Assembly: GCF_024181725.1 (NCBI RefSeq)
Contig: NZ_CP028908.1
Coordinates: 3,647,501 to 3,711,500 of the forward strand
From: Bradyrhizobium sp. WD16
Lineage (GTDB): Bacteria; Pseudomonadota; Alphaproteobacteria; Rhizobiales; Xanthobacteraceae
DNA: 64,000 nucleotides
Direction: 5' to 3'
The translations under genes and the position numbers were made by a program. Below the pieces are notes generated by a model. That model ran no database searches and had not been told where the DNA came from. It was given only the letters and a program-made list of their open reading frames with translations. This document shows, one piece after another, positions 4,716-61,426 of this stretch; position 1 is the first letter of the stretch; every line of letters starts with the position of its first letter.

Positions 4716-5831
4716 TCAGCAGTAGTGAGCGCCCTGCGTCTCCACATAGACGGCATAGAGCGACTGGCTCGCGGTCATGAACAGCCGGTTGCGCTTGACC
4801 CCGCCGAAGCACACATTGGCGCAGATTTCCGGCAGGCGGATGAGGCCGATGCGCGCCCCGTCCGGGGCGAAGACATGGACGCCGTCGTAACCCTCGCCGA
4901 CCCAGCCGACGCCCGCCCAGACATTGCCCTCGATATCGACGCGCATGCCGTCCGGGAATCCTGATTTGCCGTCCATCGTCATGTCGGCAAAGATGCGCGG
5001 ATTGGACAGCTTGGCGCCATCGATATCGTACTGCCAGATGATGTTCTTGGCGTTGGGATAATGGGTGATGCCCGTATCGCAGACATAGAGCTTCTTGTAG
5101 TCGTGGCTGAAGGCGATGCCGTTCGGCTTGAACGGCTCGTCGGCGACCTTGGTGATCTGGCCGGTCTGGCCGTCGATCCGGTACACCGCCTCCTTCTGAT
5201 AGGGCTGTACCGAACCGGTGTTGGCCCGCTGCCCTTCATAGAGGCTGTTGGCGCCGTAACCGGGATCGGTGAACCAGATCGATTTGTCGTTGGGGTGAAC
5301 CACGATGTCGTTCGGCCCGTTCAGCGGTTTGTCGCCGACCCGCTCGGCGAGCACGGTGGGCTGGCCATTGTGCTCGAAGCGCACCACGCGGGTCCGTTCG
5401 CAGGTTAGCTGGCGTCCTTCGGGATCGAAGGTGTTGCCGTTGCTCTCGTTGGACGGATAGCGAAACCGTTCGGACACGTGTTTGTCGTCGTCGAGATAGC
5501 GGAGCTGACGATTGTTTGGGATGTCGCTCCAGAGGAGATAGCGGCCCTGGGCGTTCCAGGCCGGACCTTCGGCCCATAGGCATCCGGTAAAGAGGCGCTG
5601 GATCGCGGCGTTGCCGACCTTGGCCTTGAAACGCTTGTCGTCGATGACGACGATATCCGGATCGGGATAGCGCTGCGGCTGCGCATTGCGGCCGAAATCG
5701 CGGGCCAAAGCGCTGCCGCTCAGCATCGCCGCCGCCGTGGCTGCGCCGGCGGTGCGCAGCAGGTCCCGGCGATCGAGCCCGGTCGTGCCGCCCCGCGCCG
5801 TGGCGGTGGACGTCTCTTGCCGCATTCCCAT
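4716..5831 (-). CDS. Tat-exported SMP-30/gluconolactonase-family protein
   Basis: Six-bladed beta-propeller protein of the SMP-30/gluconolactonase/LRE family, 371 aa, expected to hydrolyse a lactone using a bound divalent metal. The N-terminus carries a twin-arginine signal, DRRDLLRTAG with the arginines at residues 21-22, then a hydrophobic alanine-rich stretch ending in an ALA cleavage-like motif, so the mature enzyme should be periplasmic. Family landmarks include LWAEGPAW, NGPNDIVVHP, TDPGYG, FKPNGIAFS and FPDGMRVD. The ATG with AGGGGA upstream was chosen; a longer open frame exists but would hide the Tat signal inside the protein. A terminator-like hairpin and the palindrome array lie upstream. 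The substrate is unknown. Confidence 0.82.
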   Translation of the reverse strand: MGMRQETSTATARGGTTGLDRRDLLRTAGAATAAAMLSGSALARDFGRNAQPQRYPDPDIVVIDDKRFKAKVGNAAIQRLFTGCLWAEGPAWNAQGRYLLWSDIPNNRQLRYLDDDKHVSERFRYPSNESNGNTFDPEGRQLTCERTRVVRFEHNGQPTVLAERVGDKPLNGPNDIVVHPNDKSIWFTDPGYGANSLYEGQRANTGSVQPYQKEAVYRIDGQTGQITKVADEPFKPNGIAFSHDYKKLYVCDTGITHYPNAKNIIWQYDIDGAKLSNPRIFADMTMDGKSGFPDGMRVDIEGNVWAGVGWVGEGYDGVHVFAPDGARIGLIRLPEICANVCFGGVKRNRLFMTASQSLYAVYVETQGAHYC

Positions 5832-5946
5832 GGTGTTTCCCCTGACTGATGTTGTTCTGTTTCTTCGAGACGGAATTTCGCAGTCAGGCCGGGGCCGGAC
5901 GGCGGTCGAGCCAAACCCCCAGCCTGCTTTGAGGTTCCGCTGCAAA

Positions 5947-5974
5947 CAAAAAAGACTGCGACAGGGCCGCAGCC
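5947..5974 (-). terminator. Rho-independent terminator candidate for the cupin/livFGMHK transcript
   Basis: On the minus strand GGCTGCG pairs with CGCAGTC (one G-U) around a 7-nt loop and is followed at once by six T. It lies downstream of the cupin gene and before the SMP-30 gene, so transcripts from the first Liv operon would run through the whole palindrome array before stopping here. Confidence 0.55.
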
Positions 5975-6025
5975 TTTGAACAGCAATCAGCGGTTGTTCT
6001 GGGACTGTCCGTCGTGGAACTGTCC

Positions 6026-6192
6026 CTAGTGTGGTGGATCTGACGCTCGTTTCAGTATCGCAGCGAGTTCTTCGAACGAGCGTCAGATCCAAAACCACAC
6101 TAGAATCATAATGATGCTAGTGTCCCTTTGGTTCTAACGTTCGTAGAAGTGCTCGCTGCATGGGAATACGAACGTTAGAACCGGGACACTAG
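6026..6192. repeat. Bipartite CTAG-bounded palindrome pair, unit A1-A2
   Basis: Palindrome A1 (6026-6103, 78 bp) and palindrome A2 (6117-6192, 76 bp) are separated by a 13-bp spacer. Each begins and ends with CTAGTG/CACTAG-type termini. Each contains a perfect 16-bp stem: GGATCTGACGCTCGTT in A1 and GGTTCTAACGTTCGTA in A2. Each has a small one-sided bulge in the outer stem, on the side facing the spacer. The loop of A1 contains GCAGCGAG; A2 contains the same octamer in reverse complement, so A2 is an inverted relative of A1. Confidence 0.9.
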
Positions 6193-6354
6193 TGTGGCGT
6201 CTCGCAATTGCCTATGCCCTTCGCGGCAAGCCCCTGTAGGCAATTGCGAGACATAAGCCGCACTGGCTTTTTGATTTTGCTAGTGTCCTGATGTCTCCGA
6301 ATGACCGTGCGAGGGTGAGGCAAATGAAGCGGTAATTCGGAGACAGGATACTAG
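6189..6354. repeat. Bipartite palindrome pair, unit A3-A4
   Basis: A3 (6189-6266) has a perfect stem GTCTCGCAATTGCCTA. A 13-bp T-rich spacer separates it from A4 (6280-6354), stem GTCTCCGAATGACCG with one mismatch. The first CTAG of A3 is the last CTAG of A2. The right terminus of A3 is degenerate (CTGG). Architecture, spacer length and bulge positions match unit A1-A2 although the stem sequences differ. Confidence 0.9.
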
Positions 6355-6516
6355 TGTGGCGTCTCGCAATTGCCTATGCCCTTCGCGGCAAGCCCCTGTA
6401 GGCAATTGCGAGACATAAGCCGCACCAGCTTTTTGATTTTGCTAGTGTCCTGATGTCTCCGAATGACCGTGCGAGGGTGAGGCAAATGAAGCGGTAATTC
6501 GGAGACAGGACACTAG
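6351..6516. repeat. Bipartite palindrome pair, unit A5-A6 (tandem copy of A3-A4)
   Basis: Nearly exact tandem copy of unit A3-A4 at a period of 162 bp, sharing one CTAG with it. The few differences are at the outer ends (for example GGATACTAG in A4 against GGACACTAG in A6). The array ends 18 bp from the stop codon of the cupin gene. Confidence 0.9.
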
Positions 6517-6534
6517 CCGCACGTCGTGCGGGTG

Positions 6535-6993
6535 TTATGCCGCGGCCGGCGGCGGCAGGAAATGGATGTTGTGTTCGGCGGCGAGCGCCACGACAGCTTC
6601 CGGCGTCTGCTCGCGCATGTTGTGGATGCCCCAGAACAGGTCGTAGAGCCGGCGGGTGGGAGTCACCCAGAACAGCGACTTGGCCAGCTGCTGCGACTTG
6701 TTGAAGATGCCGTGGGGCTTGCCCATGGGCAGGCGGACGAGATCGCCGGCGGTCGCATAATCGTCGGCGCCGTCGAGGAAGAAGTCGAGGCGGCCCTCGA
6801 GAATATAGAGGTATTCGTCCTGGTCGGGGTGGATATGCGGCGGCACAAAGGTGCCGGGCGGGAAGGCGGCGTGCCAGGAGAAGGATTGGTCGGTGCGGGA
6901 TTTCGGCACATAGGTCTGGCCCAGAATGTTCCAGCTGATGCCCTGCATCCCCTCATTGGCCCGGGTGATGCCGGCGGTCTCGAGCAGTGGCAT
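6535..6993 (-). CDS. Cupin-domain protein
   Basis: Single-domain cupin of 152 aa. The first cupin motif is PPHIHPDQDEY, with candidate metal ligands H53, H55 and E60, and the second supplies H94 in GKPHGIF. Small cupins of this type bind a metal and may act as dioxygenases, isomerases or ligand-binding proteins; the sequence alone does not say which. It is the last gene of the minus-strand livKHMGF block, 47 bp after livF, so it is probably co-transcribed with that importer. The start used follows GGAGAGG; an upstream in-frame ATG four codons earlier is possible. The palindrome array lies directly downstream. Confidence 0.78.
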   Translation of the reverse strand: MPLLETAGITRANEGMQGISWNILGQTYVPKSRTDQSFSWHAAFPPGTFVPPHIHPDQDEYLYILEGRLDFFLDGADDYATAGDLVRLPMGKPHGIFNKSQQLAKSLFWVTPTRRLYDLFWGIHNMREQTPEAVVALAAEHNIHFLPPPAAA

Positions 6994-7040
6994 GGTCCTC
7001 TCCATCAGGTTTGCGCATTCGAAATCGTGCGCGTTGATTA

Positions 7041-7739
7041 TCACACGTGCAGAAAACGGTCCTTGGCGGACGCGTCGGCCTTGAGGTCGCGGCTGGTCCC
7101 GGTCCATACCACGCGCCCCTTTTCGATGATGACGTGGCGATCGGCGAAGGCCGCGAGCGCTTCGACATTCTTGTCGATCACCAGGATCGCCATCCCGTCG
7201 GCCTTCAGGCGCTTGAGACAATTCCAGATCTCGATGCGGATCAACGGTGCCAGGCCCTCGGTCGCCTCGTCGAGGATCAGGAGCCTGGGATCGGTCATCA
7301 AGGCGCGGCCGATCGCCAGCATCTGCTGCTCGCCGCCGGAGAGCTGGTTGCCGAAATGGCCGCGCCGCTCGCGCAGTCGCGGGAACAGGGCATGGACGGC
7401 GTCCAGCTTCCAGCGAGAGCGTCCGCCGTGCGAGCGCGCCGTGGCGACCAGATTTTCCTCCACCGTCAGGGTGGGAAAGATCTGGCGGCCCTCGGGGACG
7501 AGGCCGATGCCGCATTGTGCGATCCGGAACGGCGGCAGGCCATTGAGCCTCGTGGCGCCGAACCGAAGATCACCGCCGCTCGGCCTGAGCAGGCCCATGA
7601 TCGTCTTGACGGTGGTGGTCTTGCCCATGCCGTTGCGGCCGAGCAAGGTGACGACTTCTCCCGCGCCGACATCGAGCGTGATGTCGAACAGGACGCGGGC
7701 GGCGCCGTAACCGGCCTGCAGATGGGCGACGTTCAGCAT
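7041..7739 (-). CDS. livF: Branched-chain-amino-acid-type ABC transporter ATPase LivF (system 1)
   Basis: ATP-binding subunit of 232 aa, the usual LivF length. Walker A is GRNGMGKTT at residues 34-42, the ABC signature is LSGGEQQ, and Walker B reads LLILDEATEGLAP, with an alanine where most LivF have proline. LivF and LivG together drive import through LivH/LivM at the inner membrane. Its ATG overlaps the TGA of livG, indicating translational coupling. Given the surrounding aryl-CoA genes, the cargo may be an aromatic acid such as anthranilate rather than an amino acid; this is inference from context. Confidence 0.9.
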   Translation of the reverse strand: MLNVAHLQAGYGAARVLFDITLDVGAGEVVTLLGRNGMGKTTTVKTIMGLLRPSGGDLRFGATRLNGLPPFRIAQCGIGLVPEGRQIFPTLTVEENLVATARSHGGRSRWKLDAVHALFPRLRERRGHFGNQLSGGEQQMLAIGRALMTDPRLLILDEATEGLAPLIRIEIWNCLKRLKADGMAILVIDKNVEALAAFADRHVIIEKGRVVWTGTSRDLKADASAKDRFLHV

Positions 7740-8500
7740 CAGCGCGGCTCCTCCGCCTCGTCGCCGAGATAGGCGGCGCGAACCTCGGCGTTGGCGCGCA
7801 CCTCGTCGGGCAGCCCGGAGGCGATCAGGCGGCCATAGACCAGCACTGAAACGCGGTCGGCGAGGGCAAAGACCGCATCCATGTCATGTTCGATCAGGAT
7901 GATCGGCACTTCGCCTTTGAGCGCGCGAAGGATCGCGATCACCCGGGCCGATTCCTCGTGGCTGGTGCCGGCGAGCGGCTCATCGAGCAGGAGCAGCTTC
8001 GGCTTCGCGGCGATGGCGACCGCGAGCTCGAGCTGGCGCTTCTCGCCGTGAGAGAGCGTTCCGGCCAGGATGTCGGCGCGGGCGGCGAGGCCGAAGCGCG
8101 CCAGGACGTGCAGGGCTTCGTCGTTCAGCGGCGCCTCAGCGGCGGCATGGCCGACGAAGCGGAAGCTCGAACCGGCATGGGCCTGCAGCGCCAGCGCCAC
8201 ATTCTCGCGTGCCGAAAACCCCGGCAGGATCGAGACGATCTGGAACGAGCGGATGAGGCCGCGCCGCGCCCTCGCATGCATCGGCAGTCGGGTGATGTCC
8301 TCGCCGTCGAACACGATGCGGCCGGCATCCGGCGTCGCGAGGCCCGAGATCTGATGCACCAGAGTGGTCTTGCCGGCCCCGTTGGGCCCGATGACGGCAT
8401 GCAGTTCGCGCCGGCCGATGGCGAGCGAGACGTCGTCGGTCACGCGCAGCGCGCCGTAGGACTTGCGCAGGTGTTCGAGGAGCAGGATCGGTGCCGTCAT
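7739..8500 (-). CDS. livG: Branched-chain-amino-acid-type ABC transporter ATPase LivG (system 1)
   Basis: ATPase subunit, 253 aa. Walker A is GPNGAGKTT at residues 38-46, the signature is the LivG-type TLSHGEKRQ, Walker B is LLLLDEPLAG, and the switch region is IEHDMDAVF. The C-terminal GDEAEE tail resembles the usual LivG ending. The start MTAPILLLEH was chosen because it overlaps the livM stop by four bases (ATGA). The longer open frame upstream runs inside livM and lacks support. It partners LivF at the cytoplasmic face of the importer. Confidence 0.9.
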   Translation of the reverse strand: MTAPILLLEHLRKSYGALRVTDDVSLAIGRRELHAVIGPNGAGKTTLVHQISGLATPDAGRIVFDGEDITRLPMHARARRGLIRSFQIVSILPGFSARENVALALQAHAGSSFRFVGHAAAEAPLNDEALHVLARFGLAARADILAGTLSHGEKRQLELAVAIAAKPKLLLLDEPLAGTSHEESARVIAILRALKGEVPIILIEHDMDAVFALADRVSVLVYGRLIASGLPDEVRANAEVRAAYLGDEAEEPR

Positions 8501-9492
8501 GACCCGCTCCTGAACAGGCCGGCGAGACCGCCGCGGGCGAACAGGACGACGAGAATGAGCAGCGGGCCGAAGATCATGCCCCAATACTCGGTCAGGCCCG
8601 ACAGGAATTCGGCGACCAGGGTGAAGGCCGCCGCGCCGATGATGGCGCCGCTGAGCGAACCGAGGCCGCCGAGCACGACCATGAAGATCAGGTCGCCGGA
8701 GCGCTGCCAGCCGACATAGGCCGGACTGACGAAGCCGCTCTGGTTGGCCAGCAGCCAGCCGGCGACGGCGGCGATCAGGCCGGCGATGACATAGGCGGTG
8801 AGCTGATAGCGGTAGGGCGAGAAGCCGATCGCCTGCATGCGCACCGGATTTTCCCTGATGCCGCGCAGCACCCGGCCGAACCGCGAGGCGATGAGCGCCC
8901 GCAGCGCCAGATAAAGCCCGCCGAGAACGGCGAAGACCAGGTAATAGAGCGCAAGATCGCTCTCGAGCAGACGCCAGCCGACGATGGTGCTGCGGGAGGC
9001 GAGGCTGAGCCCGTCGTCGCCGCCATAGGCGGCGAGCGAGGTGAACAGGAAATAGAGCATCTGGCCGAAGGCCAGCGTGATCATGATGAAGTAGACGCCG
9101 CGGGTGCGCAGGGAGATCGCCCCGGTCGCGAGGGCGAACAGGCCCGCCGAGGCGAGCGCTGCGGCGAGCTGGACGAAGGCATCGTCGATGCCGTGGCTCG
9201 ACAGGATGCCGGCGCTATAGGCGCCGAGGCCGATATAGGCGGCATGGCCGAAGCTGATCATGGCGCCACAGCCGATCAGCAGATCGAGCGACATGGCGGC
9301 GATTGCAAGGATCATGGTGCGCGTCACCAGCGCCAGAACGAAGTCGCCACCGCCCAACGCGGCGGCGAACGGCACCAGGGCCAACGCGGCGAAGACGACG
9401 ATGGGCAGCACCTGGCCGCGGCGCCGCGAGCCGGCCATGGAGGTCGCCGGCTCCGCCTCGTCGTTTCCGCTCACTCCGGGGACGTCGGCCAT
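8497..9492 (-). CDS. livM: Branched-chain-amino-acid-type ABC transporter permease LivM (system 1)
   Basis: Inner-membrane permease of 331 aa with about nine hydrophobic segments after a short charged N-terminal tail. Family landmarks are the LLIGCGAMISFGHAAY region near the first third, the GIRENPVRMQAIG cytoplasmic loop that contacts the ATPase, and GGLGSLSGAIIGA near the C-terminus. It is encoded one base after livH and overlaps livG, so the five genes form one operon. The charged N-terminal 25 residues are longer than in many LivM and the true start could be an internal ATG at MAGSRRRG. Confidence 0.9.
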   Translation of the reverse strand: MADVPGVSGNDEAEPATSMAGSRRRGQVLPIVVFAALALVPFAAALGGGDFVLALVTRTMILAIAAMSLDLLIGCGAMISFGHAAYIGLGAYSAGILSSHGIDDAFVQLAAALASAGLFALATGAISLRTRGVYFIMITLAFGQMLYFLFTSLAAYGGDDGLSLASRSTIVGWRLLESDLALYYLVFAVLGGLYLALRALIASRFGRVLRGIRENPVRMQAIGFSPYRYQLTAYVIAGLIAAVAGWLLANQSGFVSPAYVGWQRSGDLIFMVVLGGLGSLSGAIIGAAAFTLVAEFLSGLTEYWGMIFGPLLILVVLFARGGLAGLFRSGS

Positions 9493-9493
9493 G

Positions 9494-10414
9494 TCAGTGC
9501 TTCGCCGGAAACAGGCCGGTCGGCCGGAAGAACAGCACCGCCGCCATCAGGATGTAGATGAGCATCGGCGCGATGGCGCGGCCGGTCTGGCTGGCGCTGG
9601 CCGGATCGAGCAGGGCGCGCAGCAGCGTCGGGGCGAAGAAGCGGCCGAGCGTGTCGACGAGGCCGATCAGCAGCGCCGCGACGAAGGCGCCGCGGATCGA
9701 GCCGATGCCGCCGATGACGATGACAACGAAAGCGAGGATCAGCACATTGTCGCCCATCCCGGGCTCGACCGAGAGAATGGGCGCGACCATGGCGCCGGCG
9801 AAGCCGGCCAGCATGGCGCCGACGCCGAACACCACGGTGAAGAGCAGGCGGATATTGACGCCAAGCGCGGAGACCATGGGCGCGTTGCTGGCGCCGGCGC
9901 GCACCAGCATGCCGAGGCGGGTGTGATTGACCGTCAGATAGAGCAGGAGGGCGACCGCGAGCCCGGCGCCGATGACGACGAGGCGATAGACCGGGTAGAG
10001 CATGCCCGGCGCCAGCGTCACGGTCCCGGACAGGAGTTCCGGCACCGGGACGCTGAGCGGCGCGGCGCCGAAGACGAGCTTCACCGCCTGATTGAGGAAG
10101 ATGATGACGCCAAACGTCGCGAGCACATGGGAGAGGTGGTCGCGCTCGTAGAGGTGGCGGAAAACGAGCAGCTCCAGCACCAGTCCGAAGATCAGGGCGC
10201 TCGGCAGCGCCAGCGCGAGGGCGAGCACGAACGAGCCGGTCAGGGCGGTGAAGGCGGCGGCGAGATAGGCGCCGACCATGTACTGCACGCCGTGGGCCAG
10301 GTTGATGAAATCCATCACGCCGAAGACGATGGTGAGCCCCGCCGCGATCAGGAACAGGATCAGCCCGAATTGCAGGCCGTTGAGGATCTGGACGAGGGCG
10401 AGTGTGAGCGTCAT
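9494..10414 (-). CDS. livH: Branched-chain-amino-acid-type ABC transporter permease LivH (system 1)
   Basis: Inner-membrane permease, 306 aa, with seven to eight hydrophobic helices. It has the LivH hallmarks: LNGLQFGLILFLIAAGLT at the N-terminus, FGVMDFINLAHG, and GGIGSIRGAFVAALLIGL near the C-terminus. It forms the membrane channel with LivM. The gene lies 70 bp after livK, the usual KHMGF order. No special regulatory sequence is seen in the gap. Confidence 0.9.
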   Translation of the reverse strand: MTLTLALVQILNGLQFGLILFLIAAGLTIVFGVMDFINLAHGVQYMVGAYLAAAFTALTGSFVLALALALPSALIFGLVLELLVFRHLYERDHLSHVLATFGVIIFLNQAVKLVFGAAPLSVPVPELLSGTVTLAPGMLYPVYRLVVIGAGLAVALLLYLTVNHTRLGMLVRAGASNAPMVSALGVNIRLLFTVVFGVGAMLAGFAGAMVAPILSVEPGMGDNVLILAFVVIVIGGIGSIRGAFVAALLIGLVDTLGRFFAPTLLRALLDPASASQTGRAIAPMLIYILMAAVLFFRPTGLFPAKH

Positions 10415-10484
10415 TGGCGCCTAATACCCGGCACGCGGAGTCGACGAGATCGGCACGCCCATCGCGCGGCCCCCCGCCCCGTTG

Positions 10485-11678
10485 TTAGTTGCTCGCCGGG
10501 CAGTCCTTGGCGAACTGGTCACCGAAGCTGGAAAACACCTTCTGCACGATCTCGGTCTGGAACTTGCCATCCGGGCGCTTGGCCGCCTTGACGAGATAGA
10601 AGTCCTGGATCGGATAGTGGTTGGTGTTGAACTTGAAAGGTCCGCGCAGGGAAGTGAAATCGGCCTTCTTGAGGGCGGCGCGCACCGCATCCTTGTCGGC
10701 GAGGTTGCCCTTGACCGCCTTCACGGCGCTGTCGATCAGCAGTGCGGCATCATAGGCCTGGAAGGCGTAGGTGCCGGGCACGGAATGATAGGCCGCCTCG
10801 TAGGCGGCAACGAACTTCTTGTTCTGCGGCAGGTCGAGGTTCGGCGCCCAGTTCGCCCCGCCGAACATGCCGACCGCCGCATCCTGCTGCGCCGGCAGGG
10901 TGGATTCGTCGACGGTGAAGGCCGACAGGAACGGGATGCGGTCGGCGAGGCCGGCCTGCTTGTACTGTTTCACCAGGTTGACGCCCATGCCGCCCGGCAT
11001 GAAGGTGAAAATGGCGTCGGGGTTGAGTGCCGCGATTTTCGACAGCTCAGCCTGGAAGTCGAGGGTGTTGAGCGGCACGTAGGATTCCTCCACCACCTCA
11101 CCCTTGTAATCGATTTTGAAGCCGGCGACCGCGTCCTTCCCGGCCTGATAATTCGGCACCAGGAGATAGACCCGCTTGTAGCCGCGCTCCTGGGCGACCT
11201 TGCCGAGCACTTCGTGGACCTGGTCGTTCTGGTAGGAGGTGACGAAGAAATAGGGGCTGCAGGACTTGCCGGCGAAACTGGAGGGGCCGGCATTCGGGCT
11301 GATCAGGAAGGTCTTGCTTTCGACGACCGGCTTCTCGATCGCGATCAGGATATTGGAGAAGATCGGCCCGACGACGAAATCCACCTTGTCGCGCTCGAGC
11401 AGGCCCTTGACCTTGGTGACCGCGACGTCCGGCTTGAGCTCGTCGTCGGCGATGACGACCTCGGCGTCCCGGCCGCCGAGCTTGCCGCCGAGATCCTTGA
11501 GAGCAAGATTGAAGCCGTCACGGGCCTGCTGGCCGAGCACCGCGGCCGGACCCGACAGGCTGAGGATCAGGCCGACTTTGACCTTTTCCTGGACCTTGTC
11601 CTGCGCGACGGCCGGACTGGCCGCACCGGTGACGCCTGCCAGGATGGAAAGGGCCGCTGCTCCGAGGATCCGCTTCAT
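10485..11678 (-). CDS. ABC transporter periplasmic substrate-binding protein (Liv-type, system 1)
   Basis: Solute receptor of 397 aa with a cleavable signal peptide (MKRILGAAALSILAG..., cleavage near AVA-QDK). The mature part is a type I periplasmic binding fold of the Leu/Ile/Val family, starting VKVGLILSLSGPAAVLGQQ. The ATG has AGGAG six bases upstream; an ATG two codons earlier touches that site and is less likely. It heads the operon livK-H-M-G-F-cupin. It is divergent from marR, with two MarR-type dyads between them, so import is probably induced together with the catabolic genes. Aromatic-acid binding is plausible for this subfamily in catabolic clusters but not proven here. Confidence 0.87.
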   Translation of the reverse strand: MKRILGAAALSILAGVTGAASPAVAQDKVQEKVKVGLILSLSGPAAVLGQQARDGFNLALKDLGGKLGGRDAEVVIADDELKPDVAVTKVKGLLERDKVDFVVGPIFSNILIAIEKPVVESKTFLISPNAGPSSFAGKSCSPYFFVTSYQNDQVHEVLGKVAQERGYKRVYLLVPNYQAGKDAVAGFKIDYKGEVVEESYVPLNTLDFQAELSKIAALNPDAIFTFMPGGMGVNLVKQYKQAGLADRIPFLSAFTVDESTLPAQQDAAVGMFGGANWAPNLDLPQNKKFVAAYEAAYHSVPGTYAFQAYDAALLIDSAVKAVKGNLADKDAVRAALKKADFTSLRGPFKFNTNHYPIQDFYLVKAAKRPDGKFQTEIVQKVFSSFGDQFAKDCPASN

Positions 11679-11867
11679 AGTCATCTCCTGTGCCGCGCCC
11701 AGCCGGCGGGACTTGTGAGGTAATTGTGTTCGTTTCCAATTCGCCGTTTCGAACGCGCCGGCCGCTTTCATCCCGCTGCGGTGCACAGTGCGGCGCCGCA
11801 CCCGGGACAGCCGACCCTAACTGTTGCCGGGCGGCGGCTGCAAGCCGCGCCGCGGCGGCCGCGGTCC

Positions 11868-11892
11868 GTAATTGCTTGAAACTTAAAGTAAC
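11868..11892 (-). promoter_or_regulatory. MarR-type operator candidate (site 3) before livK
   Basis: The dyad GCTTGAAACTTAAAGT at 11874-11889 is flanked by GTAATT and AAC. Read on the minus strand it is ACTTTAAGTTTCAAGC, which aligns with the sites upstream of the monooxygenase and the acyl-CoA dehydrogenase. It lies about 195 bp before the livK start. The surrounding 695-bp divergent region (11679-12373) holds no recognisable gene. Confidence 0.4.
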
Positions 11893-12092
11893 GAAGCCCG
11901 CCGTCAAGCGGGCGCGCTGCCCATTCGGCGGGCGCAACGAGCGGCAAGCCGCCGCAGCGATAGGCACGATGCGCTCGCCCGTCCTGCGCCGCCGGACGTG
12001 CGGCAAACTGCAGCGGCGATATTGAGCAACAGAACCTCTGCTCCGATCGAACCGGAGCGATGCTTCTTGCATTGATGCGTCTTTCCTTGACG

Positions 12093-12139
12093 CCAGTGCG
12101 GTGGATCCGACGCGCAAGCGCATCGCAACTTGACGAGCG
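12093..12139. repeat. Decayed half of an L-type CTAG palindrome
   Basis: CCAGTGCGGTGGATCCGACG matches the left arm of the A1-type palindrome (CTAGTG-CGGTGGATCTGACGC form) with two changes. The following bases, including GACGAGCG, resemble its degraded loop and right arm. It marks an old insertion in the livK-marR intergenic region. Confidence 0.55.
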
Positions 12140-12177
12140 GTGCGGCTGCGGTTTTGACTTCCGGGCCATTCCGACTT

Positions 12178-12193
12178 ATTTGAAGATTAAAGG
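12178..12193 (+). promoter_or_regulatory. MarR-type operator candidate (site 4) before marR
   Basis: ATTTGAAGATTAAAGG fits the pattern ATTT-A--NTTAAA seen at the three other sites. It lies about 180 bp before the marR start and would give autoregulation, which is usual for this family. Assignment rests on similarity to the other sites only. Confidence 0.4.
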
Positions 12194-12373
12194 TGATTGC
12201 CGGGCCGGGGGCGATCCGCGATGCGCAGGCCACGGCAAGTGTCCGTCGTCCGAAGTTACAGCGCCGCACGTCCAGGCACGAACTTCGGGAAACGGGGTGC
12301 TGGGCGAGACAACCTGCGTTTGCAAGCTCGTGGCCGGAGCTGCGTGCGCCAATTCACCGGGAGCTTCCCGATC

Positions 12374-12892
12374 ATGACCTTCGATTCCGAAACCAAGGCT
12401 GTCGAAAAGCCCGAGGACCACGGCGACGAATTGCGGCTGTGGCTCCGACTGCTGACCTGCACGACCTTGATCGAGGGCGAGGTGCGCAGCCGCCTGCGCG
12501 AGCGCTTCGACGTTACCCTGCCGCGCTTCGATTTGATGGCCCAGCTCGACAAGGCGCCGGACGGCATGACCCTGTCCGACGTTTCCAAGCGCATGATGGT
12601 GTCCAACGGCAACGTCACCGGGCTGGTGGAGAGGCTGGTGGAGTCGGGCCATATCGACCGGCGCACCTCTGACAGCGATCGCCGGGTCCAGGTCATCCGC
12701 CTGACCAAGCTCGGCCGGGTGGTGTTCCGCAAGATGGCGGCAGAACACGAGACCTGGATTGCAAGCTTTTTCGCCGATCTCACCGAGAAGGATGTTCGCG
12801 ACCTGATGCGGCTGCTCGCCAAGGCCAAGGTGTCGACCACCAGGGCGGCGCAGGAACGGCTGGCGCGCGGCAAGGCGGCGCTGCTGGCCTGA
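12374..12892 (+). CDS. MarR-family transcriptional regulator
   Basis: Winged-helix regulator of 172 aa. After a helical dimerisation segment it has the recognition region LSDVSKRMMVSNGNVTGLVERLVESG and the wing DRRTSDSDRRVQVIRLTKLG, both characteristic of MarR proteins; a C-terminal helix completes the dimer interface. Homologues beside aryl-CoA catabolic genes commonly respond to an aryl-CoA thioester. Here it sits between the Liv importer (divergent) and the hydrolase/ligase genes, with four matching dyads in the neighbourhood, so it is the likely repressor of the region. The ATG follows GGGAG. A longer open frame upstream lacks MarR similarity. Confidence 0.88.
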   Translation: MTFDSETKAVEKPEDHGDELRLWLRLLTCTTLIEGEVRSRLRERFDVTLPRFDLMAQLDKAPDGMTLSDVSKRMMVSNGNVTGLVERLVESGHIDRRTSDSDRRVQVIRLTKLGRVVFRKMAAEHETWIASFFADLTEKDVRDLMRLLAKAKVSTTRAAQERLARGKAALLA

Positions 12893-12911
12893 GCCCGTCA
12901 CGGAGAACGAT

Positions 12912-13739
12912 GTGTCCGAAATCGATTACGCCGCGGAATACAACAACCGGGCGCGGGTGCCGGAGCATCCCGGCATTCTCGCCGGCTGGAGCCGCGACGC
13001 CGAAGCCTATCGCGCGGCGCGCGCGGGCGCCTGGCGGACCGTCGACTACGGGGCCGGCGAGCGCCAGCGCATCGATTTCTTCCCCGGCGAGGGCCGGGGC
13101 GCCGTCGTGGTGTTCATCCATGGCGGCTATTGGCAGAGCCTCGATCGTTCGTCCTCCAGCCACCTCGCTGCCGGCCTCAACGCGCGTGGCATCGACGTCG
13201 CCGTGCCGGGCTATGATCTCTGCCCCGAGGTGACGATTGCCGAGGTCCTCGCGCAGATGCGCGCTGCGGCGCGGGAACTGGCTCGCCATGGCAGGCCGCT
13301 CGTCGTCAGCGGCCATTCCGCCGGCGGGCACCTTGCCGCCTGCCTGCTGGCGACCGACTGGCGCAGCGTCGATGCCGCTCTGCCCGCCGATGTCGTCACG
13401 GCCGCCTATGCGATTTCCGGCTTGTTCGATCTCGCCCCGCTGATCGCGACGCCGCTTAACATTGCGCTGCGGCTCGATTCCGCAACGGCGCAGGCGATCA
13501 GCCCGATCCACTGGCCGCCGCCGCAGCATGGCAGCCTCGATGCCGTCGTCGGCGGCGCCGAAAGCTCGGAGTTCCTGCGACAGAGCCGGATGATCACGCA
13601 GGCCTGGAGCAAGGCGGGTGTCGCCACGCGCTACGGCGAAATTCCCGGCGCCAATCATTTCACGGTTGTCGCGCCGCTCACCGACCCTAACTCGACGATG
13701 ACCGCACGGCTTGCCGAACTGGCGCTGGCGGCGGCGTAA
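12912..13739 (+). CDS. Alpha/beta hydrolase, arylformamidase (kynurenine formamidase)-like
   Basis: Serine hydrolase of 275 aa. It has the HGGYW oxyanion-hole motif at residues 70-74, typical of kynurenine formamidase and related esterases, the nucleophile elbow GHSAGGH with S136, and a late GANHF histidine. Kynurenine formamidase releases formate from N-formylkynurenine on the route from tryptophan to anthranilate, so the enzyme may feed anthranilate, or deformylate an anilide, in this locus. That substrate is inferred from the motif plus neighbours; a general esterase is possible. The GTG start lies 19 bp after marR behind GGAG. Confidence 0.78.
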   Translation: MSEIDYAAEYNNRARVPEHPGILAGWSRDAEAYRAARAGAWRTVDYGAGERQRIDFFPGEGRGAVVVFIHGGYWQSLDRSSSSHLAAGLNARGIDVAVPGYDLCPEVTIAEVLAQMRAAARELARHGRPLVVSGHSAGGHLAACLLATDWRSVDAALPADVVTAAYAISGLFDLAPLIATPLNIALRLDSATAQAISPIHWPPPQHGSLDAVVGGAESSEFLRQSRMITQAWSKAGVATRYGEIPGANHFTVVAPLTDPNSTMTARLAELALAAA

Positions 13740-13878
13740 GCGCGAGCCGGACGCTCCGGGTCTCGCCGACATCGGTTGCTTTTCAGGCAGGGCGGGCATC
13801 AAATGGCAGGCGAAGTCCGCAGGCCCGGTCGAAAGCGACCCCTTGCAGGCAGATATCGACAACACGTATCTGAAACTC

Positions 13879-14415
13879 ATGGCCATGCCTGTCGCCGTCT
13901 CGCCCACGATTTCGCTCAAGGTGCGCCGCCTGGGGCCGCGCGACGTCGCCGATTATCGTGACCTGCGCCTTGAAGGCTTGAAGGTTCACCCGGAGGCCTT
14001 CGCCTCGTCCTGGGAGCACGAGGTCGACAAGCCAGCCTCATGGTGGGAGGAGCGTCTGGAAACGAACGCGGTCTTTGGCGGCTGGGTCAACAGTTCGCCT
14101 CTCGTTGGCCTGGCCGGCTTCAGCGTGCAGGACGGCGTCAAGCTCCAGCACAAGGGCGTGTTGTGGGGAATGTATGTTCGGCCGCAAGCGCGCGGTACAG
14201 GATTGGCCGCAGTTCTCGTGAACCAGGTCGTCGAGCACGCCAGGACACTCGTCGAAGACGTTTGTTCGACGGTGGTGGCTTCAAACGCCGCCGCGCATCG
14301 CCTTTACGGTGAAGCGGGCTTCGTAGAATACGGATTGGAGCGGCGGGCCCTGAAGGTCGGAAGCGAATACTACGACGAACTGCTCATGGCCCTGCCGCTC
14401 AAGCCGCGTGCTTGA
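13879..14415 (+). CDS. GNAT-family N-acetyltransferase
   Basis: Acetyl-CoA-dependent N-acyltransferase of about 179 aa. The N-terminal LKVRRLGPRDVADYRDLRLEGL is the beta1-alpha1 region. The acetyl-CoA-binding motif A is WGMYVRPQARGTGLAAVLV, with the R/Q-x-x-G-x-G/A core as RPQARGTG. The C-terminal part NAAAHRLYGEAGFVEYGLE is motif B. The acceptor is unknown; many such proteins acetylate small amines or antibiotics. The start is uncertain: two close ATGs (13879 and 13885) lack a clear ribosome site, and the frame is open further upstream to 13711. The gene may be unrelated to the catabolic cluster. Confidence 0.75.
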   Translation: MAMPVAVSPTISLKVRRLGPRDVADYRDLRLEGLKVHPEAFASSWEHEVDKPASWWEERLETNAVFGGWVNSSPLVGLAGFSVQDGVKLQHKGVLWGMYVRPQARGTGLAAVLVNQVVEHARTLVEDVCSTVVASNAAAHRLYGEAGFVEYGLERRALKVGSEYYDELLMALPLKPRA

Positions 14416-14768
14416 GGAGCAAGGCGGACTTCAACATCGAGGCGTTACGCTTGGCGAGCTTGCATATCTGACGGACCGACCTATGCACCTGACGCCGACA
14501 GGAGCGGAGTAGCCGCGCTGAACGTCGATCGAGAAGACGTTCGGTTGCTGATCCATTTCATGGAACCTGTCCGGCATGCCGATCCAACTCTCGCCGGATC
14601 GCGCTCTGTTTTTTTCAATGCCGGAACGTCCGACGTCCAGTGGAGAGCCCGGCCATGGCGGGAGGGACCGAGTCCGGCCTGACAAAAGAACGAGGCTGCC
14701 GTTTCGCGCTGCCGCATCTTGCGGCAGGGCACGGCGAAAAAGCGGGCGGATCCGCCGCAGATTCCATG
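14416..14768. other. Intergenic stretch without a recognisable gene
   Basis: This is the gap between the GNAT gene and the operator of the acyl-CoA dehydrogenase operon. A minus-strand frame of 129 codons crosses it, but it has no family resemblance and no ribosome site, so it was not called. A T-run at 14609-14615 follows a weak 6-bp stem and might end the GNAT transcript. Confidence 0.4.
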
Positions 14769-14802
14769 TTGCGTCCAATTGTTTTAGGTTTAAAATGATT
14801 GG
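14769..14802 (+). promoter_or_regulatory. Putative promoter with MarR-type operator (site 2)
   Basis: The core TTTTAGGTTTAAAA (14782-14795) lies within a larger dyad bounded by CCAAT and ATTGG. It overlaps a candidate -10 (TAAAAT, 14791-14796), 16 bp from a candidate -35 (TTGCGT, 14769-14774). This is the same layout as site 1, where the -35 is TTGCGG and the -10 TAAAAT. The operon start codon is about 100 bp downstream. Confidence 0.5.
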
Positions 14803-14896
14803 TGTCGCGACGGGATCCATGCTGTCGGATCGGAGCGCGACGCCGACTGTGAATTTTGAATTGCGGTTTTCGAGCCGTGATTTGCGGAGCGCGACA

Positions 14897-16093
14897 GTGG
14901 CCGATCGATCATTTCTCGCCTGGCCGTTCTTCGACGAGGCCCATCGCGGCGTCGCCGGCGAACTCGGCCGCTGGGCCGACGGGACGATCGATCGCCTCGT
15001 CGATCATCACGATGTCGACGGCTCTTGCCGCCGCCTGGTGGCGGCCCTCGGCCGCGCCGGTTTTCTCCGCGCCGCAGCGCCAGCGGCGCAGGGCGATGGA
15101 TCGCTGTTCGATGTCCGCACGCTTTGCCTGATCCGCGAGACGCTCGCCTACCGCTCGGGTCTCGCCGATTTCGCCTTCGCCATGCAGGGGCTCGGCACCG
15201 GCCCGATCACCCTGTTCGGGTCCGATGCATTGCGGCAGCGCTATCTGCCCAAGGTGGTCCGCGGCGAGGCGATCGCTGCGTTCGCGTTGTCCGAGCCGGA
15301 GGCCGGCTCGGACGTGGCGGCGATGACCACGACGGCGACGCCCGATGGCCCCGATCACGTCCGCCTCGACGGCCTGAAGACCTGGATCTCGAACGGCGGT
15401 ATCGCCGACCATTACGTGGTGTTCGCCCGATCCGGCGAGGCCGCGGGCGCCCGCGGCATCAGCGCCTATGTCGTCGATGCGGATGCGCCGGGGCTGTCGA
15501 TTGCCGAGCGTATCGATGTCATCGCACCCCATCCGCTGGCAACGCTGAAATTCGATGGCTGCCGTGTGCCGCTTGCCCGCCGGATCGGCGGCGGCGGTGA
15601 CGGCTTCAAGGTGGCGATGGCCACCCTCGATGTCTTCCGCTCGACGGTCGGCGCCGCCGCGCTCGGGCTCGCCCGCCGGGCGCTCGACGAGGCGCTCGGC
15701 CGCGCCGCCAGCCGCAGGATGTTCGGCGGCGTGCTCGGCGATCTGCAACTCACCCAGGCCGGACTGGCTGAGATGGCGACCGGCATCGATGCCGCCGCCT
15801 TGCTGGTCTATCGCGCGGCCTGGACCAAGGACCGCGGCGCGGCCCGCGTCACCCGCGAGGCCGCCATGGCCAAGCTGTTCGCGACCGAGACCGCACAGCA
15901 GGTGATCGACCGCGCGGTCCAGATCTTCGGCGGGCTCGGCGTCAGGCAGGGCGTCAAGGTCGAAGAGCTCTATCGTGAAATTCGGGCGTTGCGCATCTAT
16001 GAAGGCGCGACGGAAGTGCAGAAGGTTGTCATCGGCCGGGAACTGATGAAGGCCGCGCAGGCGGCGACCGCCGGAGGCGACGCCGCGCAATAG
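14897..16093 (+). CDS. Acyl-CoA dehydrogenase family protein
   Basis: Flavoprotein of 398 aa, the normal length for this family. The order is an N-terminal helical domain, a central beta domain with [16 protein letters not shown] (FAD and substrate contacts) and KTWISNG, and a C-terminal helical domain ending [18 protein letters not shown], which provides the usual catalytic-glutamate region. Such enzymes put a 2,3 double bond into acyl-CoA thioesters. In a 2-aminobenzoyl-CoA pathway one could oxidise the alicyclic CoA ester made by the dearomatising reductase; that assignment is inferred. A GTG start with GGAG seven bases upstream was chosen because similarity begins there; the frame is open 107 codons further upstream across the operator. 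Confidence 0.85.
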
Positions 16094-16216
16094 CGGCGCC
16101 GCAACGGCGGCAGGAAACGCAATGGACGGGCCATGGGGTCGCGGGAATCTTGGCGATTCCTCCGACGGAATGGTCGCCGCCGCGGGCGCAGCCGGCGGGG
16201 CTGAAAGGGACACGCG

Positions 16217-17842
16217 ATGGCCAAGACGGCGCATGTCGATACATTTGCACAGGATCATCTGCCGCCACGGGAACTGTGGCCGGACATGATCTTCACCCGC
16301 CCCGAATTTCAATATCCGGAGCGGCTCAATTGCGTGCACAGCTTCCTCGACCGCTGGGTCACGGAGGGGCGCGGCGACGAGACCTGCATCTTCACCGACG
16401 AGCGGACCTACACCTATCGCGAGCTGCAGGCATTGGTGAACCGCATCGCCAATGTGCTCGTCGGCAAGCTTGGTCTCGTCACCGGAAATCGCGTGCTGCT
16501 GCGCTCCGCCAACAATCCGATGATGGTGGCGACCTATCTCGCGGTGATCAAGGCCGGCGGCATCGCGGTGGCCACCATGCCGCTGCTGCGTGCCAAGGAG
16601 ATCGTCTATCCGATCGGCAAGGCCAGGATCCGTCTCGCGCTGTGCGACCATAAGCTCGCCGACGAGATGGAGAAGGCGAAGGCCCAGTCGAGCGATCTCG
16701 AACGCGTGGTCTATTGGGGCGGCAACGATGCGCAGTCGCTGGAGGCGCTGATCGCCGACGTCAGTCCGGAGTTCACCGCGGTCGATACCGCTGCCGACGA
16801 TCTTTGCCTGATCGCCTTCACCTCCGGCACCACCGGCGATCCGAAAGGAACCATGCATTTTCATCGCGACATGCTGGCGGTGTGCGACGGATTTGCCCGC
16901 AATGTCCTGCGCGCCGGGCCGGCCGATCGTTTCATCGGTTCGGCGCCGCTCGCCTTCACCTTCGGCTTCGGCGGCGTTCTGTTTCCGATGCATATCGGCG
17001 CGTCGTTCGTTCTCCTCGAGAAGACGACGCCGGACAACCTTGCCGCCACCATCGCGCGCTTCAAGGCCACCGTCTGCTTCACCGCACCGACCGCCTACCG
17101 GGCGATGCTGTCGCTCCTCGACAAGCACGACTTGTCGTCGCTGCGCAAATGCGTCTCCGCCGGCGAGCCCCTGCCAAAAGGCACCTTCGAGGCCTGGCTG
17201 AAGGCGACCGGCCTCAAGCTGATCGACGGGATCGGCTCGACCGAGATGCTGCACATCTTCATCAGCGCCGTCGAGGACGAGATTCGTCCCGGCGCCACCG
17301 GCAAGCCGGTTCCCGGCTTTGAGGCCAAGATCGTCGGCGACAACGGCGAGGATCTGCCGCCGGGGCAGATCGGCCGGCTCGCCGTGCGCGGCCCGACGGG
17401 CTGCCGCTACATGGCCGACGAGCGCCAGCGCAAATGCGTGCTCAACGGCTGGAATCTCACCGGCGACACCTACCTCATGGATGAGGACGGCTATTTCTGG
17501 TACCAGTCGCGCTCCGACGACATGATCGTGTCCTCCGGCTACAACATCGCCGGTCCGGATGTGGAGGCCGCGCTGCTGACCCACGATGCGGTCGCAGAAT
17601 GCGGCGTGGTCGGAGCGCCTGACGACGCCCGCGGCACCATCGTCAAGGCCTATGTGGTGCTGCGTCCGGGGGTGACCGGCGACGCCGCGCTGGTCGGCGC
17701 GCTTCAGGAGCATGTCAAGCGCGAGATCGCGCCCTACAAGTATCCGCGTGCGATCGAGTTCGTCGGCGAATTGCCCAAGACCGCCAGCGGCAAGCTCAAG
17801 CGCTTCACCCTGCGGCAGATGACGCAGGAGGCGGCGGAATGA
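16217..17842 (+). CDS. Aryl-CoA ligase, 2-aminobenzoate/benzoate-CoA ligase type
   Basis: AMP-forming acid:CoA ligase of 541 aa, expected to activate an aromatic carboxylate with ATP and CoA in the cytoplasm. The P-loop-like motif TSGTTGDPKG spans residues 202-211. GIGSTEMLHIF is the family A5 motif, GDTYLMDEDGYFWYQSRSDD is the hinge region, and K526 in the C-terminal TASGK is the adenylation lysine. The overall pattern (PPRELWPDMIF start, GSTEMLHIF) is that of benzoate-CoA ligase relatives, including 2-aminobenzoate-CoA ligase. The partner monooxygenase/reductase makes 2-aminobenzoate the preferred substrate, by inference. Its TGA overlaps the ATG of the thioesterase gene. Confidence 0.85.
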   Translation: MAKTAHVDTFAQDHLPPRELWPDMIFTRPEFQYPERLNCVHSFLDRWVTEGRGDETCIFTDERTYTYRELQALVNRIANVLVGKLGLVTGNRVLLRSANNPMMVATYLAVIKAGGIAVATMPLLRAKEIVYPIGKARIRLALCDHKLADEMEKAKAQSSDLERVVYWGGNDAQSLEALIADVSPEFTAVDTAADDLCLIAFTSGTTGDPKGTMHFHRDMLAVCDGFARNVLRAGPADRFIGSAPLAFTFGFGGVLFPMHIGASFVLLEKTTPDNLAATIARFKATVCFTAPTAYRAMLSLLDKHDLSSLRKCVSAGEPLPKGTFEAWLKATGLKLIDGIGSTEMLHIFISAVEDEIRPGATGKPVPGFEAKIVGDNGEDLPPGQIGRLAVRGPTGCRYMADERQRKCVLNGWNLTGDTYLMDEDGYFWYQSRSDDMIVSSGYNIAGPDVEAALLTHDAVAECGVVGAPDDARGTIVKAYVVLRPGVTGDAALVGALQEHVKREIAPYKYPRAIEFVGELPKTASGKLKRFTLRQMTQEAAE

Positions 17843-18312
17843 ACATGATGACCGGCGCCAAGGCGGCTATTCCCGCGCTGGAGGCGCTTGGCCCGGGCGT
17901 CTGGCGCCGGTCGGTGCCGATCCGTTTCTCTCACTGCGACCCGGCGGGCATCGTCTATTTCGCCAAGTATTTCGATATCGCCAATGGCGTGGTGGAGGAC
18001 TGGTTTGCCGCCGCGCTCCACCTGCTTTATCACGATTTCATCGGGGCTCGCCGCACCGGGCTCGGCTTCGTCAACGTCACCTGCGATTTCGTCCGCCCGG
18101 GCATGATGGGCGACGAGGTGATCTTCGCCGTGATGGTGGAGGGGGTCGGCACGGCCGCGATCAGGCTGGTCATCGACGCCTATCGCGAGGGCGAGGTGGT
18201 GCTGGCAATGCGCCTCGTCATGGCGACGACGTCGTTGCTGGTTCACCGGGCGATTCCGGTTCCGGACGACCTGCGCGACGCCATCGAAACATACAAGGAG
18301 AACTGCCGGTGA
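17839..18312 (+). CDS. Acyl-CoA thioesterase, 4-hydroxybenzoyl-CoA type
   Basis: Hotdog-fold thioesterase of 157 aa. The active-site helix motif is HCDPAGIVYFAKYFD, with D34 as the expected catalytic aspartate of 4-hydroxybenzoyl-CoA thioesterases. It could hydrolyse aryl-CoA esters to free CoA when the pathway stalls, or release a product; both are inferred. The start overlaps the ligase stop by four bases (ATGA), and its own stop overlaps the GTG of ridA, so the three genes are translationally coupled. Two further in-frame ATGs lie within the first four codons. Confidence 0.83.
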   Translation: MNMMTGAKAAIPALEALGPGVWRRSVPIRFSHCDPAGIVYFAKYFDIANGVVEDWFAAALHLLYHDFIGARRTGLGFVNVTCDFVRPGMMGDEVIFAVMVEGVGTAAIRLVIDAYREGEVVLAMRLVMATTSLLVHRAIPVPDDLRDAIETYKENCR

Positions 18313-18773
18313 CGGCGATCAAGGGAACCACGGTTGCGGTGATGCCCGCGGCCACGGATCGGGAAGCTGCGGAGCGTCCTGTGGCGCTGCAGCCGTCGGG
18401 CTGGCCGCGGCCGAAAGGCTATGCCAACGGCATGCTGGCCGAGGGCCGGCTGGTGCTCACCGGCGGCGTGGTCGGCTGGGATGCGCAGGAGCGGTTTGCC
18501 GATGGCTTCGTTGCCCAGGTCCGCCAGGTGCTGGAGAACATCGTCGCCATTCTCGCCGAAGGCGGCGCCGGGCCGGAGCATCTCGTCCGCCTCACCTGGT
18601 ATGTGGTGGACATGGCCGAGTACACCGACAATCTCAAGACGATCGGCGAGGCCTACCGCGAGGTGATCGGCGCGCATTATCCGACCATGGCGCTGGTCCA
18701 GGTCGTCCGCTTGGTCGAGCCGGTCGCCCGCGTCGAGATCGAGGCGACGGCGGTCCTGCCGGCGCGCGGCTGA
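18309..18773 (+). CDS. RidA-family (YjgF/Rid) imine/enamine deaminase
   Basis: Rid-family protein of 154 aa with an N-terminal extension of about 25 residues. Recognisable parts are the core KGYANGMLAEGRLVLTGG, the loop LTWYVVDMAEYTDN, and the C-terminal ARVEIEATAVL, close to the RidA active-site strand with its arginine. Rid proteins form trimers in the cytosol and hydrolyse reactive enamines or imines to ketone plus ammonia. The dearomatised product of 2-aminobenzoyl-CoA carries such an enamine, so a pathway role, not just housekeeping, is plausible; this is inference. The GTG start is coupled to the preceding stop. Confidence 0.85.
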   Translation: MTAIKGTTVAVMPAATDREAAERPVALQPSGWPRPKGYANGMLAEGRLVLTGGVVGWDAQERFADGFVAQVRQVLENIVAILAEGGAGPEHLVRLTWYVVDMAEYTDNLKTIGEAYREVIGAHYPTMALVQVVRLVEPVARVEIEATAVLPARG

Positions 18774-18888
18774 GTGCGATCGGCGTAGACACCTCGGCCG
18801 CCGTCAGGCTGATGCCACATTCCAGCACCACGATGCTTGCCATTGATGATGGGCCGCGGCGGTTTGCAGTGCGGGAGAGAGGCGCGTT

Positions 18889-19054
18889 CTAGTGTGGCGT
18901 CTCGCAATTGCCTATGCCCTTTGCGGCAAGCCCCTGTAGGCAATTGCGAGACATAAGCCACACTAGCACTTTGATTTTGCTAGTGTCCCTATGTCTCCGA
19001 ATTACCGTGCGAGCGCGAGGCAAACGTAGCGGTAATTCGGAGACGGGACACTAG
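18889..19054. repeat. Bipartite CTAG palindrome pair, unit B1-B2
   Basis: B1 (18889-18966) is the A3-type palindrome with intact CTAG at both ends. A 13-bp spacer separates it from B2 (18980-19054), the A4-type palindrome. B2 has a perfect stem GTCTCCGAATTACCG where A4 has one mismatch. Orientation is the same as in the array at 6 kb. Confidence 0.9.
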
Positions 19055-19216
19055 TGTGGCGTCTCGCAATTGCCTATGCCCTTTGCGGCAAGCCCCTGTA
19101 GGCAATTGCGAGACATAAGCCACACTAGCACTTTGATTTTGCTAGTGTCCCTATGTCTCCGAATTACCGTGCGAGCGCGAGGCAAACGTAGCGGTAATTC
19201 GGAGACGGGACACTAG
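19051..19216. repeat. Bipartite CTAG palindrome pair, unit B3-B4 (tandem copy of B1-B2)
   Basis: Essentially identical tandem copy of B1-B2 at a 162-bp period, sharing one CTAG. Copies within this array are more alike than copies between the two arrays (for example CTTTGCGG here against CTTCGCGG in array A), which points to local duplication. The array ends 26 bp before the next start codon. Confidence 0.9.
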
Positions 19217-19242
19217 CGCCACCCTGATTCGGCGGAGCGCAG

Positions 19243-41499: not shown

Positions 41500-41597
41500 G
41501 TAAAAGGGACACTGGCATCATAGTGCGGTTTTGGATCTGACGCTCGTATGAAGAACTCGCTGCAATGCTGAAACGAGCGTCAGATCCACCGCACTAG
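41500..41597. repeat. Inverted, partly decayed bipartite CTAG palindrome (locus C)
   Basis: The well-preserved part (41520-41597) is the A1-type palindrome in reverse orientation, with a 15-bp stem (GGATCTGACGCTCGT) and the loop octamer GCAGCGAG read in reverse complement (CTCGCTGC). A remnant of the R-type partner, GGGACACTGG, lies just before it at 41506-41515 across a shortened spacer. It sits between the HemD-like and purU genes, which diverge. Confidence 0.8.
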
Positions 41598-61308: not shown

Positions 61309-61350
61309 CTTCTTCGATCCAAGGTGATGCCGGCGGTCCGCAGTGTCAGC

Positions 61351-61426
61351 CTGGTGGTCCGATTCCAACATTCGCATCCCGTTTCTGCAGGCGCATTTGC
61401 GAATGTTGGAATCATAGGACCACTAG
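61351..61426. repeat. CTAG palindrome, single L-type copy (locus D)
   Basis: 76 bp with ends CTGGTGGTCC and GGACCACTAG and a perfect 16-bp stem GATTCCAACATTCGCA. A small bulge (ATA) lies in the right outer arm, the L-type position. The CTAG at its right end provides the TAG stop codon of the FAH-family gene on the minus strand. Confidence 0.85.

Follow-up and report, generated by a model that had tools for sequence, protein, structure and literature searches.

What kind of element is made of two palindromes, each bounded by CTAG and held a fixed 13 bp apart? The question is raised by positions 6026-6516 of the window, the whole stretch of 64,000 nucleotides of Bradyrhizobium sp. WD16 that was analysed here, where six palindromes stand as three pairs of 78-13-76, 78-13-75 and 78-13-75 bp, just as the first-pass annotation had laid them out. 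The first pair consists of palindrome A1 (6026-6103, 78 bp), with its outer short arm on the left and its long arm on the right, the 13-bp spacer AATCATAATGATG (6104-6116), which is IHF-like at 7/9 positions as a consensus match, and palindrome B1 (6117-6192, 76 bp), in which the long arm lies on the left and the outer short arm on the right. The last CTAG of B1 is common to the next pair, which comprises palindrome A2 (6189-6266, 78 bp), the 13-bp spacer CTTTTTGATTTTG (6267-6279), whose complement together with CTAG agrees with 8/9 IHF positions, and palindrome B2 (6280-6354, 75 bp); a second tandem copy of A2 (6351-6428, 78 bp), the same 13-bp spacer (6429-6441) and a second tandem copy of B2 (6442-6516, 75 bp) follow. 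Among the six palindromes, two inner ends (CACTGG in the first A2, CACCAG in the second) and one outer end (GATACTAG in the first B2) are mutated. The second array, 18889-19216, holds two further pairs, A2 (18889-18966) with B2 (18980-19054) and A2 (19051-19128) with B2 (19142-19216), and both have the 13-bp spacers that had been annotated there. Adjacent pairs in the arrays overlap by one CTAG. Two palindromes stand alone, a diverged A1 (41520-41597) and a degenerate B1-like copy with uncertain ends (61340-61426).

The two arms of a typical palindrome differ in the distance from CTAG to stem, which is 13-14 nt in the long arm and 10 in the short arm, and the long arm faces the spacer in 5/5 window pairs. 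The one-sided bulge reported as always facing the spacer was accordingly recovered as 3-4 extra nucleotides on the inward side of all five. The exact pattern CTAGTGT-N45-75-ACACTAG has seven matches in the window and none in each of 100 shuffles, and an Rfam search of window positions 5500-20000 gave one match, under its gathering score and away from the arrays. Two of the three pairs in 6026-6516 are 162-bp tandem copies, which probably arose by local duplication because they are 98% identical and have in common the same changes against most copies.

The reading in the first-pass annotation would have been refuted by pairs confined to this duplication or by a freely varying spacer length, and neither proved to be so. 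Across the 5.95-Mb genome the exact palindrome pattern is matched 713 times (reversed-pattern control, 0), and four stem families occur, A1 and A2 with the cap CTAGTGTGG and B1 and B2 with the cap CTAGTGTCC. Palindromes are mostly 72-79 bp and pairs ~164-168 bp, with no transposase gene inside, and the inner arms carry about 2-4 extra nucleotides between the CTAGTGTNN cap and the stem. A relaxed finder located 216 elements (97 clusters) in C1:1-800000 and 151 elements (76 clusters) in C1:2000001-2800000, which was taken as a fresh test and contains 7500 N. For neighbours 5-30 bp apart, with unreadable-arm elements left out (18 in the first sample, 10 in the second), the spacer is 13 bp in 74/78 and 50/53 cases (124/131 in total) and both long arms point inward in 67/78 and 45/53 (112/131 in total); opening the spacer window to 0-60 bp in the first sample gave 13 bp in 55/59. 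Partners are matched as well: with nine A-A or B-B neighbours left out, the two samples hold 36 A1B1, 72 A2B2 and 18 mixed A-B pairs (p 6e-15). The spacer had been described as fixed in length with differing sequence; the length is nearly fixed, but the sequence is constrained as well, since the spacers in C1:1-800000 fall into two main types that track the A partner (AATCATAATGATG; CACTTTGATTTTG or CTTTTTGATTTTG).

These regularities bear on the reading that single palindromes are the mobile units and that pairs and arrays were assembled from separate insertions, recombination and duplication. CTAG bounds each palindrome, and 20 palindromes in the two 800-kb samples lack any trace of a partner, as that reading would have it, but it leaves the conserved 13-bp spacer, the inward long arms and the matched partners unexplained, and a single palindrome is the insert needed in 0/64 three-palindrome contexts of the two samples; we regard it as very unlikely. 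Lone copies differ in form from the rest, since two short arms are seen in 7/16 lone palindromes that have no spacer, IS or shared border beside them, compared with 13/323 (p 7e-6); the 13 two-short-arm forms among the 323, some of which have intact ends, speak against a strict rule. In the two samples 13 asymmetric palindromes are also found alone and lack a spacer, so that the long arm may retain some activity.

The insert can be examined at CTAG itself, which is scarce in this genome. Outside the elements there are 109 and 150 CTAG per 800-kb sample against ~2520 and 2455 expected from base composition, a ~20-fold under-representation, whereas the elements contain 333 and 227, or 68% of all CTAG; in the 64-kb window 17/21 lie within palindromes. 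Because CTAG is scarce and mostly within elements, new copies often fall into old ones, which would yield arrays. The two samples contain 14 nested patterns of four palindromes, 10 of them clean, in that an inward-long-arm A-B pair lies inside another such A-B pair, and four unclear. Removing the insert and one CTAG from the first-sample nests restores a host pair whose 13-bp spacer is of a usual type, and the hosts point to a putative target duplication at CTAG. One host, at nest 259727, is a mixed pair (B1-A2), and in three first-sample cases the spacer of the insert measures 10, 11 and 14 bp.

A transposase family with this target is resident. DDE_3 is matched 34 times in the WD16 genome, by three families: F1 with 15 copies, F2 with 10 and F3 with nine (one with a stop codon). 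F3, which carries DDE_3 and is IS630 by NCBIfam (1.7e-75), is 1184 bp long with CTAG at both ends, and its ends, CTAGTGTTCCGTCTCGC and CTAGTGTCCTGACTCTC, match in register the short arms of A2 at 18 and 19 of 24 positions and those of B2 at 16 and 20 of 24. The same F3 ends match the inner long arms at only 9-12 of 24, and F1/F2 left ends match the short arms at 8-11 of 24. The likeness is weak for A1/B1, which agree with the F3 ends at 12-16 of 24 (B1 equals B2 in closeness to the F3 left end, at 16), and none of the three resident IS630 families was found to have A1-like ends. The idea that the two IS ends gave rise to palindromes A and B respectively was rejected, as the F3 match numbers do not separate A and B. 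In another genome, G055, an IS630 with an open frame has ends that agree with palindrome B in 22 and 21 of 25 positions and with A in 19 and 18. Thus A2/B2 and the G055 palindromes have ends like a resident autonomous IS630, and the elements are short, numerous and without a transposase gene, as in an IS630 MITE. CTAG borders the nested pairs and those F1, F2 and F3 copies whose ends are readable, which supplies the flanking TA of such an element. A palindrome, a spacer or another such IS borders 11/15 F1 copies, 8/10 F2 copies and three of the four F3 copies examined (nine in all). F1 and F2 copies (L102, L104-L127) land at palindrome-border CTAGs; the F1 copy at L117 seems to lie inside a palindrome stem, at another TA and not at the border CTAG.

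We extended the comparison to 149 family genomes, WD16 included, through the junction ACACTAG-N0-30-CTAGTGT, which occurs in 44/149 and at least seven times in 16; low junction counts do not exceed the reversed control (eight in G073 and at most five elsewhere among the matches listed). G122 has 173 junctions. F3-like proteins are found in 45/149 family genomes, 9/16 pair-rich and 36/133 other genomes (p 0.02). Only 4/10 pair-rich genomes (G145, G055, G033, G008) have an IS630 above the family cut-off; in the other six, G122 has fragments, G051 and G075 have sub-cut-off matches and G146, G064 and G068 have none, and therefore the enzyme in such genomes is lost, diverged or something else. At 29 other IS630 loci a CTAGTGT end is present at nine (both ends in two) and CTAGTGG stands instead at ~11. 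A sister set of IS630 elements carries CTAGTGG ends (L159, L160, L162-L164 and others).

The same genomes allowed us to weigh a REP/BIME-like family moved by a RAYT-type transposase, a single-strand Y1 enzyme that recognises hairpins. The palindromes are paired and each has a bulge, and a search with the Y1_Tnp profile (PF01797) of the WD16 genome and the 149 family genomes that include it found one RAYT-type gene in WD16 and Y1 genes in 9/16 pair-rich against 27/133 other family genomes (p 0.004), an association at least as clear as that of F3-like proteins. It may reflect general mobile DNA load, and it slightly lowers our confidence in the IS630 reading. On the other side, the palindromes have CTAGTGT ends on both sides, no GTAG or CGTC tag and lengths of mostly 72-79 bp against 20-40 bp for REPs; their outer arms match IS630 ends; and at E 0.001 no Y1 gene was matched in G122, with its 173 junctions. 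No RAYT gene flanked by the repeats was found at the WD16 locus or in 20 other RAYT neighbourhoods (~2 kb each side); at the former there is just one truncated palindrome, past the 3' end of the gene, and an exact CTAGTGT end occurs in 1/20 of the latter, 1.2 kb away. A RAYT/REP origin, with a statistical link and no physical link at RAYT loci, was set aside as the explanation and kept as a rival that we judge quite improbable. Of the BIME-type mosaic proposed in the first-pass annotation, the genome-wide paired palindromes, near-constant spacing and variable stems are retained and REP identity is not, in keeping with its remark that the ends are unlike those of known REPs, for which the available text of PMC3733652 gives GTAG/CGTC tags in the published superfamilies. 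The WD16 locus itself (C1:55300-56160) contains a RAYT-type gene of 226 aa, accompanied by a repeated TTTCGGTGACAGTGCACTTAATTCC-like sequence and a truncated palindrome, of type B2, past its 3' end. At L142 1686-1860 (G033), two palindrome-like stretches that fit a loose pattern only lie ~88 bp apart, and a Y1 gene is present within a few hundred bases of them. Ends, target and nesting agree better with IS630-type transposition than with a REP/RAYT origin.

Is the pair then peculiar to Bradyrhizobium? The junction occurs in 13/385 genomes of a class sample, and by reading, six of the 13 (G000, G162, G215, G271, G295, G311) have AT-rich 13-bp spacers of the pair kind, while the remaining seven look like chance or other repeats; the full pair pattern occurs in 1/398 genomes of a phylum sample, namely Bradyrhizobium sp. 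WD16 itself. A contig scan of named genomes, whose pattern allowed an 11-15 bp spacer, returned at least 119 stretches, of which 80 listed records, some from the same genomes, were characterised. Genera among the matches listed are Bradyrhizobium, Nitrobacter, Afipia, Hyphomicrobium, Devosia, Mesorhizobium, Caulobacter, Phenylobacterium, Paramagnetospirillum, Terasakiella and Acidiphilium, together with a few MAGs named Proteobacteria only. Both palindromes have all four exact ends at 53 of the 80 listed loci (the other 27 have no such pair), and in 52/53 of these complete pairs both long arms point inward, the exception being symmetric on one side. Spacer length among them is 13 bp in 35 pairs, 12 in eight, 14 in seven, 11 in two and 18 in one, and 45/53 combine one CC cap with one non-CC cap. 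In stretches chosen for containing 0-30 bp junctions, the spacer is 12 or 13 bp in 19/20 from G122 and 13 or 14 bp in 10/10 from G073. Partner stems showed no significant co-evolution across the class (9.82 against 9.55 of 15, reached in 114/2000 shuffles). Across many Alphaproteobacteria, then, the stems change but the layout persists, as does a spacer of mostly 13 and usually 12-14 bp. Several draft contigs of G048 (C55, C67, C70, C83, C220, C248, C297) start less than ~60 bp from a palindrome, and the repeats may be assembly breakpoints in that genome. The ~1.7-Mb genome G222 (C119, C126, C134) has short repeats, ACACTAGTGT and GGACACTAGTGT, that are unlike the WD16-type pairs.

The spacer is conserved in more than length. 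Oriented from A to B, the 29 class-wide 13-bp spacers among the matches listed give the consensus AAtCAtaaA.TTG, and the IHF consensus WATCAANNNNTTR, as given in the available text of PMC5896051 and PMC3281130, is likewise 13 bp. The best match over the nine specified IHF positions averages 7.49 for the 53 listed spacers against 5.83 (sd 0.10) for shuffled ones, and 31/53 reach eight or nine of nine compared with ~1% of shuffles; because the spacers have common ancestry, the resemblance is one conserved motif and not 53 tests. The distinct spacers of WD16, G122 and G073 behave similarly in this match, and spacer position 6 deviates from the IHF consensus. On consensus comparison, the spacer resembles an IHF site.

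An IHF-like spacer, together with a layout and spacer conserved across many genera and an intergenic position (12/216 and 9/151 elements of the two samples lie mostly within called ORFs), is what would be expected of a host-functional architectural or RNA element, an IHF-anchored site or transcript hairpin kept for its function, with transposition secondary or past. This account is at odds with the patchy distribution of junctions among the 149 family genomes and with elements nested inside each other, and we consider it unlikely. Nor is a gene-end bias clear: an excess in convergent gaps is absent from the first sample and mild in the second, and a role at gene 3' ends was rejected on that count.

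We conclude that the A-13-B pair is probably a single non-autonomous transposon, a 'twin-hairpin' (paired) MITE that relies on an IS630-family transposase supplied in trans. The outer short arms have the spacing of IS630 ends and largely their sequence, and a DDE transposase of this family with a TA/CTAG target would act on them in trans. The shifted inner arms would be poor substrates, so that cutting is directed to the outer ones and both palindromes travel together, while the spacer may serve as an IHF-type bend site that folds the element until its outer ends meet. Arrays would then form mostly as new copies land in the CTAG of old ones, with some added by local duplication. More tentatively, and with less confidence than in the transposon itself, the pair may represent a distinct kind of mobile DNA in which one IHF site pins two hairpins, the outer arms still work as transposon ends, a shift of a few nucleotides has disabled the inner arms, and the folded doublet jumps as a unit, spread over the Alphaproteobacteria and nesting in scarce CTAG that it supplies itself. 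An abundant repeat would in this way be tied to a target and an enzyme family, and the fixed-spacer palindrome pair becomes a testable rule of live outer arms, shifted inner arms and an IHF-like bend between them. Confirmation would show by what means two hairpins stay joined in a non-autonomous element, and how an element whose target tetranucleotide is scarce can create landing sites for itself.

Among known systems, we take the comparison with BIMEs and REPs as one of analogy. Boccard and Prentki reportedly found in 1993 that IHF binds a class of REP-containing repeats in E. coli, the RIB-type BIMEs. Those are REP-based, whereas the A-13-B pairs have IS630-type ends and IHF enters as a consensus match only. 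The RIME repeats of Rhizobium are two-palindrome repeats. Bradyrhizobium has the palindromic intergenic repeats Br-REP1 and Br-REP2 (PMC5082802), which differ in sequence from the A-13-B pairs, and CTAG is absent from the main text of that paper. The Correia elements of Neisseria and QMITE1 of Coxiella are MITEs with an IHF site but, as described in the available parts of PMC2229807, PMC10969869 and PMC5896051, each is one inverted-repeat element and not two palindromes with an IHF-like site as their sole spacer. A literature search, which reached few subscription papers and included passages of PMC3189936 and PMC12306157, found no prior description of the A-13-B element. RUP of Streptococcus pneumoniae, an IS630-Spn1 MITE of 107 bp with 108 intergenic copies (PMC2229807), is likewise a small intergenic repeat with ends like a resident IS630, a TA-containing target and frequent landing in or near other mobile elements; the accessible text of the same source describes it as a single element, with no mention of a second palindrome or fixed core. 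The closest published layout encountered is that of the CIR repeats of Caulobacter and other Alphaproteobacteria, in which two long inverted repeats form two arms and a linker in intergenic DNA (Chen and Shapiro 2003, as described in PMC2229807), features common to the WD16-type pairs as far as the description of CIR goes. According to the available text, CIR is ~110 bp, against 164-168 bp for the A-13-B pairs, has GANTC at its terminal loop and is not linked there to a transposase; GANTC was found in 9/106 loops class-wide among the matches listed and anywhere in 11/367 WD16 elements, so the pairs lack this CIR feature as a rule. Within the portions of the literature examined, the A-13-B pair works like an IS630 MITE, in a doublet layout that is otherwise described for the CIR repeats only.
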